From NCBI GenBank assembly GCA_016235555.1, contig JACRKC010000104.1, positions 1 to 64,000 on the forward strand: a stretch of 64,000 nt of DNA, in the 5' to 3' direction. The notes below the pieces were generated by a model. That model did not search any database. It saw only the letters and a program-made list of their open reading frames with translations, and was not told where the DNA came from. Of this stretch, positions 16,827 through 20,726 are shown piece after piece. A program made the position numbers and the translations under genes. Every line of letters starts with the position of its first letter. Within the stretch, counting starts at the first letter, position 1. The DNA is from Verrucomicrobiota bacterium (lineage in GTDB: Bacteria > Verrucomicrobiota > Verrucomicrobiia > Opitutales > Opitutaceae).

Positions 16827-19800
16827 ATGGCGGACGATGGTTTTCCTCGACGCATGGAAAACGGGTCGGCGAGTTTCGAGTTCCTGCTGAACGGCGAGCT
16901 GGTTCGCGTGGAGAATCTCCCGGCCACCACCACGCTGCTCGACTGGCTGCGCACGAACGGCCGCACCGGCAGCAAGTGCGGCTGCGCCGAGGGCGATTGC
17001 GGCGCGTGCTCCGTCGCCCTCGTCGATCGCGACGCGGCGGGCCGGCCGGCCTACCGGGCGATCAACTCGTGCATCGCGCTGCTGCCGATGTTCGCGGGGC
17101 GCGAGATCGTGACGGTCGAGGCGCTCGCCCAGGGCGATCAGCTGCATCCCGTGCAGGCCGCGATGGTGGAGCACTACGGTTCGCAATGCGGCTACTGCAC
17201 GCCGGGTTTCGTCGTCGCGATGTTCGAGGGTTACTACCGCGACGGCGCGAAGTCGCAGCCGCAACTCTGCGATCAACTGTGCGGCAACCTGTGCCGCTGC
17301 ACGGGCTACCGGCCGATTCGCGACGCGGCGGCGGATGCGTGGGCGCGGCGCACACCGGAGCGCGACGCCGCGGATCCGTTTGCGCAGCGGCTGGGCGAAG
17401 TGGTCGAGCTGCCGGCGGCGTTGCATTACGACGGCGCGGGTGAGCACTTCTTCCGGCCGACGTCACTGGCGGAACTCTTCGCGCTGCGGAGCCGCCACCC
17501 GCAGGCGAAGCTCGTGGCCGGCGCGACGGAACTAGGCGTCGAACTCAACAAAAAGTTCAGACGCTACCCCGAACTCATCTCGGTGGAGGGCGTGCCGGAG
17601 CTGACGCACATCACGTCGACGCCCACCGAATGGCGGATCGCCGCGGCGGTGACGCTGACCACGATCGAGGAGGCGCTTGGTTGTAGGTCGGGGTTTACCC
17701 CCGACACGTCGGGCGTAAAGCCCGACCTACAGGAGTATCCCTCGATCGCGAAGATGCTCGCGGTGTTTGCGTCGCGGCAGGTGCGCAACCGCGCGACGCT
17801 CGGCGGCAACCTCGTGACGGCGTCGCCCATCGGGGACAGCGCGCCGGTGCTGCTCACGCTCGATGCCAGCGTGGTGCTCGCCTCGACGCTCGGGGAGCGG
17901 ACGCTGCCGCTCGACGGTTTTTTCACGGGCTACCGGCAGACGCAGCTGCGGCCCGACGAGGTGATGAAGGAAATCGTGCTGCCGCGCGGCGCACCCGGTG
18001 CAGGGCTCGTGCGGCGCGTGGATTTTCAAAAAGTGTCCCACCGCCGGGAGGTGGACATCAGCATTGTGGCGGGTGCGTTCTGCGTGGACCTGGACGCGGC
18101 GGGCATCGTGCGGAAGGCGCGGATCGCCTACGGGGGCGTGGCAGCGATGCCGGTGCGGGCGAAGCAGGCGGAGGCGGCGCTCGTCGGGAGAACGCTGAGC
18201 GACGCGGCCGGCGAGGTGGCGGAGATTCTGCGCGGCGAGTTCAAGCCGATCGACGATTTGCGCGGGAGCGCGGAGTATCGGCGCGGCGTGCTGGTTTCGG
18301 TGTGGGAAAAATTTGCCGCGGGGGAGACGAGTCTGGCGGTGGATTCGCCGGCGAGTTTCGCCGGCAGCGCGCCGTGGCCGGTGGAGGCGGCGTCGAAGCA
18401 ACTCCGGCACGAGAGCGCGGTCGGGCATGTGACCGGCCGCGCGCACTACGTGGACGACACCGCGCAGAAGCGGACGATGCTCGAGGTGTGGCCGGTGATG
18501 TCGCCGCACGCGCACGCCATAATCAAGCGGCGCGATGCGGGTGCGGCGCGTGAAGTGCCGGGCATCGCGGCGGTGCTGATGGCGGAGGATGTGCCGGGGC
18601 ACAACAACGTGGGCGTGTCGCGGCCCGACGAGACGCTCTTCGCGGCGGACGAAGTGCTCTATCACGGACACCTCGTGGCGCTCGTGGTGGGCGAGTCGCT
18701 CGCGGCGTGCCGGGTGGCGGCGGCGCTCGTGCAGGTGGAGTATGAGCCGTTGCCGGCGGTGGTGACGATTCGCGACGCGATCGCGCGGGAGAGTTTTCAC
18801 AATCCGCCGCGGGTGATGACACGCGGCGATTGCGCGGCGGCGCTCGCGGGCGCGCCGCACCGGCTCGCGGGGGAATTCGAGTTCGGCGGGCAGGAGCATT
18901 TTTACCTCGAGACGCAGGCGGCGTGGGCGGAGCCGGGCGACGAAGGCGATGTGTTCATCGCGTCGAGCACGCAGCATCCGTCGGAGATTCAAGCCATCGT
19001 GAGCGAGGTGCTGCATCTGCCGCGCCACAAGATCGTCGTGCAGTCGCCGCGGATGGGCGGCGGCTTCGGCGGCAAGGAGACGCAGGGCAACACGCCCGCG
19101 GCCCTCGTCGCGCTCGCGGCGCTCAAGACCGGGCGGCCGGTGCGCGTGCAGTTCGACCGCGACCTCGACATGACGCTCACGGGCAAACGGCATCCGTTTT
19201 TCGCGAAGTTCGAGGTGGGCTTCACGGGCGACGGCGTGTTGCGCGCGGTGCAGGCGGACTTGGTCTCGAACGGCGGCTGGTCGCTCGATCTCTCGCAACC
19301 GATTATGGACCGGGCGCTGTTTCACCTGGACAACGCCTATTACCTGCCGGCGGTGCGGCTGACCGGGCGCGTGGCGAAGACGAATCTCGCCTCGAACACC
19401 GCCTTCCGCGGCTTCGGCGGGCCACAGGGCATGCTCATCATCGAGGAAATCATCGATCGCGTCGCGCGCGCGCTTGGGCTGCCGCCGGAAGTCGTGCGCG
19501 AGCGGAATCTCTATCGTGGCACCGGCGAGACCAACACGACGCATTACGGTGTCGAGATCGGCGACAACCGCATCCAGCAGATCTGGCGGACGGTTCTTGA
19601 GCAGGCGCGGTTCGCCGAGCGGCGGCGGGAGATCGCGGAATGGAACCGCGCGCACCGCGGCGTGCAGCGCGGGCTCGCGGTCACGCCGGTGAAGTTTGGA
19701 ATTTCGTTCACGCTCACGCACTACAACCAGGGCGGCGCGCTCGTGCATGTTTACCAGGACGGCACGGTGCAGGTGAACCACGGCGGCACCGATATGGGGC

Positions 19801-20726
19801 AGGGGCTGCACACGAAGATCCTCGGCATCGCGATGCGCGAACTCGGCCTGCCGGCCGACGCGATTCGGATGATGCGCACGCGCACCGACAAGGTGCCGAA
19901 CACCTCGGCGACCGCGGCGAGTGCCGGCGCGGACCTCAACGGCGCCGCCGTGCGCAATGCGTGCGCCACGCTCCGCGAGCGCATGACGCCGGTTGCGGCG
20001 AAGCTGATCGAGGCTGAACGTAGGTCGGGGTTTACCCCCGACGCGTCGGGCATGAAGCCCGACCTACAGGTTGCGGACGGATTCGTGTTCTTCGCCACTG
20101 ATCCCACGACGCGCGTGGCCTTCGCGAAAGTCGCGGCCCAATGCTACGCGTCGCGCGTGAGCCTCTCGGCGACCGGCTTCTACGCGACGCCCGGCATTCA
20201 TTGGAATTGGGAGACCGTGTCGGGCAAGCCGTTCGCCTATTACGCGTGCGGCGCGGCGGTGGCGGAAGTGGAGGTCGACGGCTACACCGGCCTGAGCCGC
20301 GTGCGGCGCGTCGACATCGTGCACGACGTCGGCGACTCGCTGAACCCCGGCGTCGACCGCGGCCAGATCGAGGGTGGCTTCGTGCAAGGCATGGGCTGGC
20401 TCACGAGCGAGGAGCTGAAGTGGGACGCGTCGGGCCGCTTGCTCACGCACGGCGCGAGCACCTATCAAATCCCCGCGATCGGCGATGCGCCGATGGAGTT
20501 CAACGTCACGTTGCTCCCCGACGCTGCGAATGACAAGGCCGTGCACGGCAGCAAAGCCGTCGGCGAGCCGCCGCTGATGCTCGCCTTCTCCGTGCGCGAA
20601 GCGATCCGCGACGCCGTGGCGAATTTCGGAAAATCCGGTGGCCAGGTCCCGCTCGCGTCACCGGCGACCGGCGAGGCGGTGTGGCGGGCGATTGAATCAC
20701 GAGTTAGTAAAGTAGGTAAAATATGA
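16827..20726 (+). CDS. xdh: Xanthine dehydrogenase, single-chain Fe-S/FAD/molybdopterin enzyme, with two in-frame repeat peptides
   Basis: About 1,299 aa. It oxidises hypoxanthine and xanthine to urate. Domain order is as in eukaryotic-type XDH: first [2Fe-2S] (C53, C58, C61, C82), second [2Fe-2S] (C121, C124, C156, C158), FAD domain from about residue 205 (KLVAGATELGVE), then the molybdopterin domains with RMGGGFGGKE and, near the end, GSKAVGEPP with the catalytic glutamate. Two 17-residue segments come from family D palindromes: 286-302 in the FAD domain and 1065-1081 in the molybdenum domain. Start is uncertain: 16770 lies inside a repeat, while 16827 and 16854 are better candidates. Joining all three modules in one chain is less usual in bacteria, where two or three subunits are common. 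Confidence 0.93.
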   Translation: MADDGFPRRMENGSASFEFLLNGELVRVENLPATTTLLDWLRTNGRTGSKCGCAEGDCGACSVALVDRDAAGRPAYRAINSCIALLPMFAGREIVTVEALAQGDQLHPVQAAMVEHYGSQCGYCTPGFVVAMFEGYYRDGAKSQPQLCDQLCGNLCRCTGYRPIRDAAADAWARRTPERDAADPFAQRLGEVVELPAALHYDGAGEHFFRPTSLAELFALRSRHPQAKLVAGATELGVELNKKFRRYPELISVEGVPELTHITSTPTEWRIAAAVTLTTIEEALGCRSGFTPDTSGVKPDLQEYPSIAKMLAVFASRQVRNRATLGGNLVTASPIGDSAPVLLTLDASVVLASTLGERTLPLDGFFTGYRQTQLRPDEVMKEIVLPRGAPGAGLVRRVDFQKVSHRREVDISIVAGAFCVDLDAAGIVRKARIAYGGVAAMPVRAKQAEAALVGRTLSDAAGEVAEILRGEFKPIDDLRGSAEYRRGVLVSVWEKFAAGETSLAVDSPASFAGSAPWPVEAASKQLRHESAVGHVTGRAHYVDDTAQKRTMLEVWPVMSPHAHAIIKRRDAGAAREVPGIAAVLMAEDVPGHNNVGVSRPDETLFAADEVLYHGHLVALVVGESLAACRVAAALVQVEYEPLPAVVTIRDAIARESFHNPPRVMTRGDCAAALAGAPHRLAGEFEFGGQEHFYLETQAAWAEPGDEGDVFIASSTQHPSEIQAIVSEVLHLPRHKIVVQSPRMGGGFGGKETQGNTPAALVALAALKTGRPVRVQFDRDLDMTLTGKRHPFFAKFEVGFTGDGVLRAVQADLVSNGGWSLDLSQPIMDRALFHLDNAYYLPAVRLTGRVAKTNLASNTAFRGFGGPQGMLIIEEIIDRVARALGLPPEVVRERNLYRGTGETNTTHYGVEIGDNRIQQIWRTVLEQARFAERRREIAEWNRAHRGVQRGLAVTPVKFGISFTLTHYNQGGALVHVYQDGTVQVNHGGTDMGQGLHTKILGIAMRELGLPADAIRMMRTRTDKVPNTSATAASAGADLNGAAVRNACATLRERMTPVAAKLIEAERRSGFTPDASGMKPDLQVADGFVFFATDPTTRVAFAKVAAQCYASRVSLSATGFYATPGIHWNWETVSGKPFAYYACGAAVAEVEVDGYTGLSRVRRVDIVHDVGDSLNPGVDRGQIEGGFVQGMGWLTSEELKWDASGRLLTHGASTYQIPAIGDAPMEFNVTLLPDAANDKAVHGSKAVGEPPLMLAFSVREAIRDAVANFGKSGGQVPLASPATGEAVWRAIESRVSKVGKI
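17682..17731. repeat. Family D palindrome in frame in xdh (FAD domain)
   Basis: A 50-bp element with arms TGTAGGTCGGGGTTTACCCC and GGGCGTAAAGCCCGACCTACA. Together with the next base it encodes exactly 17 residues, CRSGFTPDTSGVKPDLQ. In the other two phases on this strand it contains a stop codon, so only one insertion phase keeps the gene open. Confidence 0.9.
20019..20068. repeat. Family D palindrome in frame in xdh (molybdenum domain)
   Basis: A second 50-bp copy of the element at 17682, read in the same phase and direction, giving RRSGFTPDASGMKPDLQ. The two copies are about 2.3 kb apart in one gene and differ at only a few bases. Confidence 0.9.

Follow-up and report, generated by a model that had tools for sequence, protein, structure and literature searches.

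Two in-frame GTAG-tagged REP dimers in a xanthine dehydrogenase gene of an Opitutaceae bacterium, and recurrent REP-type palindromes at one loop of the enzyme

We analysed a 64,000-nucleotide stretch of DNA (hereafter the window; positions 1 to 64,000 of contig JACRKC010000104.1, assembly GCA_016235555.1) from a Verrucomicrobiota bacterium of the family Opitutaceae, in which the open reading frame (ORF) for xanthine dehydrogenase (XDH) carries two short palindromic segments. These segments are in-frame dimers of repetitive extragenic palindromic (REP) sequences, i.e., REPINs, which belong to a repeat with many copies in the genome, linked to ORFs resembling REP-associated tyrosine transposases (RAYTs), and REP-type palindromes recur at one of the two sites in XDHs of related bacteria. 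It is highly probable that the two REPINs were moved by RAYTs and landed in a stop-free phase at tolerant places of the enzyme, the encoded peptides being passengers.

The palindromes originally predicted at 17682 and 20019 were confirmed, and the exact ends of the 48-bp elements are listed in Table 1. Each element comprises two GTAG-tagged 23-bp units in inverted orientation with a 2-bp spacer, and the two elements are 94% alike over 51 nt. All of the four exact occurrences of GTAGGTCGGG in the window fall within them. The predicted product of REPIN 1 corresponds to RSGFTPDTSGVKPDL plus parts of the codons at either edge. One of the three phases of the 48-bp element at site 1 is free of stop codons on each strand. 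The idea that the elements use the sole stop-free phase thus holds for the 48-bp form, but not for other spacer lengths, in which VGRALRPT... is a further frame that can lack stops. With a coding model trained on 305 ORFs, we detected coding signal to either side of each insert. The ORF matched seven XDH-type Pfam domains in a profile search, and its scores against NCBIfam models were 971.7 bits for xdhB (above the cut-off of 849.5) and 462.6 bits for xdhA (slightly below the cut-off of 467). The claim that a dispersed palindromic repeat was inserted in frame, in this lineage specifically, into an enzyme that keeps its domains is supported.

Table 1. Features in and at the edge of the XDH ORF of the window
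Feature	Position	Strand	Description
XDH ORF	16770-20726	+	1318 aa; iron-sulphur (Fe-S), FAD and molybdenum (Mo) domains in a single chain
Palindrome of a different GTAG-tagged family (GTAGGGCGGG...)	16738-16815	no strand	at the 5' edge of XDH
REPIN 1	17683-17730	+	48-bp dimer of inverted GTAG REPs; in frame, FAD domain of XDH
REPIN 2	20020-20067	+	48-bp dimer; in frame, Mo domain of XDH, helix-strand loop

Each element had been expected to add 17 codons. The insertions themselves stand, but their sizes do not: the net gain is 16 codons at site 1 (35 versus 19 in each of the 15 covering relatives among the 16 listed) and 12 at site 2 (49 versus 37 in the nearest relative, L071), where the insertion is not a clean one, as the end of the palindrome, PDLQV, replaces GDIAF of L071. 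None of the 50 rows aligned from relatives, which comprise 46 distinct sequences, contains the site-1 segment; one of these rows, L099, has a different insert there. The segment corresponds to residues 101-117 of the AlphaFold model of the FAD part, with a short helix at 114-117 and a per-residue confidence (pLDDT) below 50 at 107-115, and helices 92-98 and 120-129 lie on either side. Site 1 is thus predicted to be an inter-helix loop in the FAD domain. As for site 2, the modelled segment follows the long helix 505-541 as a loop and its end would form the next strand (557-560); the mean pLDDT of its blocks is 63 and 77, as compared with 92 and 91 for the adjoining blocks. The phmmer alignment of the XDH to PDB entry 1wyg, which we take to be the rat enzyme, is interrupted from query residue 1077 to 1124. 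The proposed structural check of the insertion sites thus places both in loops, as far as the models can tell.

The half-site pattern (GTAG followed by GTCGGGxTTTAyxCCCGAC) matched 245 times in the 8.03-Mb genome, as opposed to zero matches of the mirrored control, and the 48-bp dimer was found with up to three mismatches at 35 distinct places (37 rows, two places being hit on both strands). We compiled 143 elements from the listed places and read approximately 2 kb on each side of them, or less at contig ends; a fresh scan again yielded 143. In 132 of these, two units are arranged in opposite orientation with GTAG at both outer ends. Matches to the Y1 transposase family (Y1_Tnp) occur at ten places in the genome, two of which (on contigs C59 and C69) are located between copies of the very repeat seen in XDH, 128-231 bp from the Pfam match. 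The ORF on C59 scores 81.2 bits against the NCBIfam model REP_Tyr_transpos (cut-off 80) and that on C69 79.1 bits. In one RAYT-like ORF as listed (L255, 2059-2625), the first residues are encoded by the flanking REP. The repeat displays the hallmarks of the GTAG REP super-family, namely a tagged short stem-loop in many copies, inverted dimers and a RAYT-like gene flanked by its own repeat. We infer mobility by RAYTs from this genetic linkage, the recurrence described below and the literature.

The phase of coding copies, on which the original prediction hinged, proved not to be random. In 25 of the 143 elements, both flanks are coding and share strand and frame, and in 22 they share the strand but differ in frame; 11 elements lie between convergent genes, 33 have one coding flank and 52 none. 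Fifteen of the 25 same-frame elements are open throughout and ten are not. If these ten and the 22 different-frame elements sit at gene junctions, approximately one same-frame case is predicted for every two different-frame cases, and the observed ratio of 10 to 22 fits this prediction. Several of seven junction-type cases that we inspected are indeed the end of one gene meeting the start of another at the element, and most of the ten and 22 elements are probably of this kind, three possible truncations aside. At L265 (2001-2048), two ribosomal-protein-like genes, presumably rplK and rplA as judged from their translations, meet at a copy of the REPIN seen in XDH.

The 15 open in-frame elements sit in 14 genes, XDH holding two. 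Named after the best family match, the other hosts are leuS, NAD(P)H-hydrate dehydratase, ada, hrpA, metH, an MsbA-like exporter, gatB, rlmM, purL, a DUF4450 protein, uvrA, cusA/czcA and a fucokinase-like protein; the names ada, rlmM, cusA/czcA, fucokinase-like and MsbA-like rest on scores below the curated cut-off of the named NCBIfam model, and several host ORFs are cut off at the ends of the stretches. All of the 13 non-XDH host ORFs match at least one protein family (DUF4450 alone in one case), and in eight of them the element lies within the matched range of a single family or domain. L188, a 69-bp element in an open 323-aa frame, was dropped from the in-frame count, as its flanks differ in frame and no family match was obtained. 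Dimers of 48 bp are open in genes more often than other dimers (8/36 versus 7/96; Fisher test, p = 0.028), and none of the 61 dimers of 63 or 67 bp is.

The half-site variants GTTTACC and GTTTATC occur six and six times in the in-frame genic elements, as compared with three and 86 times elsewhere (Fisher test, p = 5e-5), in a post hoc comparison of 15 genic elements for which GTTTACC was sought by name, unlike most other variants. In the RSGF frame, GTTTACC replaces Ile by Thr or Val; of the six, L206 uses another frame. The excess hints at change after insertion and may be regarded as a lead.

The recurrence at site 2 was observed in a gene tree of the window XDH and 45 of 73 loci (identity of at least 55% and the compared part covered; the rest were dropped). 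Twelve of these 46 XDHs, the window included, carry a REP-type palindrome in the helix-strand loop, and the sequences of the inserts appear to fall into five families: (i) that of the window element, in the window and L107; (ii) GTGGGAGGGGCTTTA palindromes in L089 and L095; (iii) GTAGGAGCGGCTTTA in L109 and, as a half palindrome, L072; (iv) GTGGGAGCGA in L073 and L074; and (v) a GTAG or GTGG palindrome with GAGGTGACGAG in L090, L093, L094 and L097. A loose pattern for the first four families matched 63 times in the genome of L089, 162 in L095, 72 in L109, 156 in L074, 111 in L073 and 142 in L107, with 0-2 matches of the control in each; this pattern pools the four families, with places given for G057, part of G058, G059, G064 and G065, and bare counts, the family not being shown, for G060 to G063. 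The weakest of the 12 carriers is L072, whose genome has three matches against two of the control. The core of the fifth family was found 14 times in the genome of L097, ten in L093, 28 in L094 and three in L090, the control giving zero; these four carriers are 58-62% identical, and the copy in L090 is decayed. L084, with a 58-residue segment at site 2 in the compared stretch, was not counted as occupied, as no REP could be assigned to it (seven pattern matches in the genome, one of the control).

At least seven changes of presence and at least ten of family are required at site 2 on the gene tree, which was built quickly and leaves 16 of its 43 inner branches open. Carriers have empty rows as neighbours (L071 and L088 close to the window, L077 next to L107), and holding the window and L107 together was rejected (approximately unbiased test, p-AU = 1e-36), a constraint that concerns the gene tree and two rows picked after seeing the data. 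Common ancestry of the inserts in the window and L107 is thus disfavoured by the gene tree. The original claim that the segments are foreign to the XDH family is borne out for site 1 but only in part for site 2, where some relatives have similar segments and L107 the same repeat, yet apparently by separate insertions. Site 2 is a recurrent landing place for REPs of several families.

When 76 XDH genes (site 2 being covered in 67) were scanned strictly for palindromes, 30 were found, as opposed to 15 in codon-shuffled copies; four short segments hold 15 of the 30, and the other 15 lie elsewhere. The scan missed site 2 of the window itself, which has three arm mismatches, and counted L074 as elsewhere because it was merged into a longer stretch. 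Palindromes outside the four segments are as many as in the shuffled control, and we do not take them as REPs. Eight midpoints fall within 22 codons, which was equalled by one of 20000 uniform placements, the eight including L079 (read as chance) and the merged L074. The linker after the Fe-S domain bears palindromes in L088, L073, L105, L097 and L093, and that before the Mo domain in L097, L093 and L141; judged by sequence, these two linkers also appear to have been struck repeatedly by REP-type palindromes. The evidence for recurrence in uvrA is weak: among 30 loci from 61 genomes searched, L326 shares the REP and the insertion place of the window genome but differs in the spacer, and L337 has a different palindrome there. 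Nine palindromes were found in uvrA in total, as compared with three in the shuffled control, and the length of the segment varies between loci.

These data are best explained as follows. Non-autonomous GTAG-tagged REP dimers, most likely mobilised by RAYTs, given the two RAYT-like ORFs between the same repeats, would have inserted into XDH in the sole stop-free phase and at spots that tolerate extra residues, i.e., the inter-helix loop of the FAD domain and the helix-strand loop of the Mo domain; selection presumably purged copies that entered rigid parts or arrived in another phase. In related bacteria, differing REP families would have landed repeatedly in the site-2 loop and the two domain linkers, as we propose, because these places are permissive, and the peptides would be tolerated passengers. 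We infer the selective filter, the tolerance of the enzyme and the translation of the segments. Tolerated insertion is the best reading of the peptides, and any function of theirs is putative. Several observations weigh against this explanation. The stretches around the elements cover 225 of the 245 half-sites, not all of them, and the coding model could have missed genes broken by an element. We saw no clear gene breakage among the 143 elements, but L254, L267 and L287 supply the stop codon of an upstream ORF while another frame is open, which leaves truncation possible in these three. In addition, the RAYT-like ORF on C69 falls narrowly under the curated cut-off, half of the XDH palindromes do not exceed the shuffled control, the four segments were named after their positions had been seen, and 27 of the 30 uvrA loci have no palindrome at the insertion place of the window genome.

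Among the alternatives, an adaptive role of the inserted peptides, in which a longer loop alters how XDH binds partners, how stable it is or how it is regulated, with the repeat on its way to becoming a domesticated protein module, would account for REP-type inserts in a single loop in 12 of 46 XDHs, and the enrichment of GTTTACC in in-frame genic half-sites hints at change after insertion. Nevertheless, differing sequences fill the same loop, 34 of the 46 XDHs do without an insert, the peptide sequence is set by the DNA palindrome, and the age of the elements or their source copy may explain the GTTTACC excess in so small a post hoc sample; we thus regard adaptation as improbable. Alternatively, site 2 may have received a single ancient REP, which was later replaced by further insertions or by gene conversion between repeats. 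Change counts on the tree are blind to gain versus loss, and the four carriers of one family (L090, L093, L094 and L097) suit such a history, whereas the empty rows beside carriers, the rejected grouping of the window with L107 and the number of changes needed argue against it, leaving this scenario unlikely.

It is equally doubtful that the RAYT or REP favours the DNA sequence of the loop, so that recurrence reflects target choice and not permissiveness. Repeated landings at one place by several families sharing the GTRG tag are what target choice would produce, but the five families have differing flanking bases at site 2, and the other places struck are domain linkers. The possibility that XDH is a decaying pseudogene, the insertions being signs of decay, is very remote. 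Two elements in one gene and the XDH 3'-end fragments downstream, beside toxin-antitoxin genes, might be taken that way; we rejected this reading on the open 1318-aa frame, the domain matches and the coding signal flanking each insert.

Apart from the REPINs in its interior, XDH bears a palindrome at its 5' edge. The start codon of the ORF at 16770 lies between the arms of this palindrome, and the true start may instead be the in-frame ATG at 16827, in which case translation may skip the 19 codons at the beginning of the ORF. Downstream of XDH, we found a PemK/MazF-like toxin gene (21740-22069) and a Phd/YefM-ParE-like pair (22208-22405 and 22411-22662), each followed by a fragment of the XDH 3' end: 47 identical nucleotides at 22073-22119 after the former, and a segment around 22668-22738 that is 84-85% alike after the latter. 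The window also holds the palindromic families GTAGGGCGGGGTCGCC... and GAGGTGGAGCGCGTT... (13372-13402 and 47740-47822; 40718-40847 and 53499-53628), as well as four copies, in both orientations and 84-90% alike, of a repeat of approximately 130-144 nt (7104-7235, 27171-27302, 43559-43688 and 50652-50781).

Much of what we describe has precedents. Di Nocera, De Gregorio and Rocco (2013; PMC3733652), in the accessible parts of their paper, reported GTAG REPs that lie within ORFs and encode amino acids, most of them in Opitutus terrae, including two REP units in a single ORF and uvrA and RNA helicases among the targets, as well as REPs that provide the stop codon TAG to flanking ORFs. The same text suggests flexible linkers or loops as intragenic REP sites and leaves open whether the insertions are neutral on that ground. 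The repeats analysed here resemble those of O. terrae in their GTAG tag with a GTGG variant (the tag is mutated to GTGG in most GTAG-20), their head-to-head dimers, their coding units within ORFs and two per ORF, their uvrA and RNA helicase hosts, their supply of stop codons to flanking ORFs, and their loop or linker sites. The 2-bp spacer agrees with the 1-2 bp between the partners of GTAG-17 dimers of O. terrae, a comparison based on the spacer. Likewise, an inverted REP pair present in high copy number is what was described as the REPIN in the available text on Pseudomonas fluorescens SBW25 (PMC3116915, 2011); those REPs are extragenic, unlike the 15 of 143 elements in frame within genes here.

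The original prediction likened the segments to Rickettsia palindromic elements (RPEs), palindromic repeats found in frame in many ORFs. This holds as an analogy but not as membership: the host bacteria, sequence and tag differ, RPE-4 and RPE-6 being assigned to the CGTC super-family, said to have no dedicated transposase (PMC3733652, as far as accessible), whereas the GTAG repeat here lies beside RAYT-like ORFs. As for recurrence, the accessible text of PMC3733652 mentions different REPs at about the same site in recB of two Xanthomonas species, and REPs at different sites where other genes that share a functional category are concerned. Unlike these cases, one XDH loop is used by five families in 12 of 46 XDHs, in addition to the XDH linkers. 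Neither XDH as a REP host nor several REP families in one loop was found in print in a partly narrow search of the open-licence literature, which excluded supplements such as Additional file 3 of PMC3733652. Thus, to the extent that these sources could be consulted, intragenic GTAG REPs, two per ORF, REP-coded residues and the richness of O. terrae are already published, and the use of one loop by several families was not found there.

Other palindromes of the same type at site 2 in relatives suggest that REPs can repeatedly lengthen the same enzyme loop. It is attractive to speculate, albeit tentatively, that differing REP families are a recurring natural source of new loops, in that a few permissive places (the XDH loop, the two linkers and perhaps the variable segment of UvrA) are refilled independently by each lineage's own REP, the peptide then being adjusted, as in the change of Ile to Thr or Val at the loop codon of the palindrome. 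With occupied and empty versions of the loop, several REP families, a known fold and a simple assay, XDH offers a comparative test of the neutrality question raised in the consulted parts of PMC3733652. For annotation, REP-coded peptides in bacterial proteins call for caution, as they are repeats and not conserved segments.

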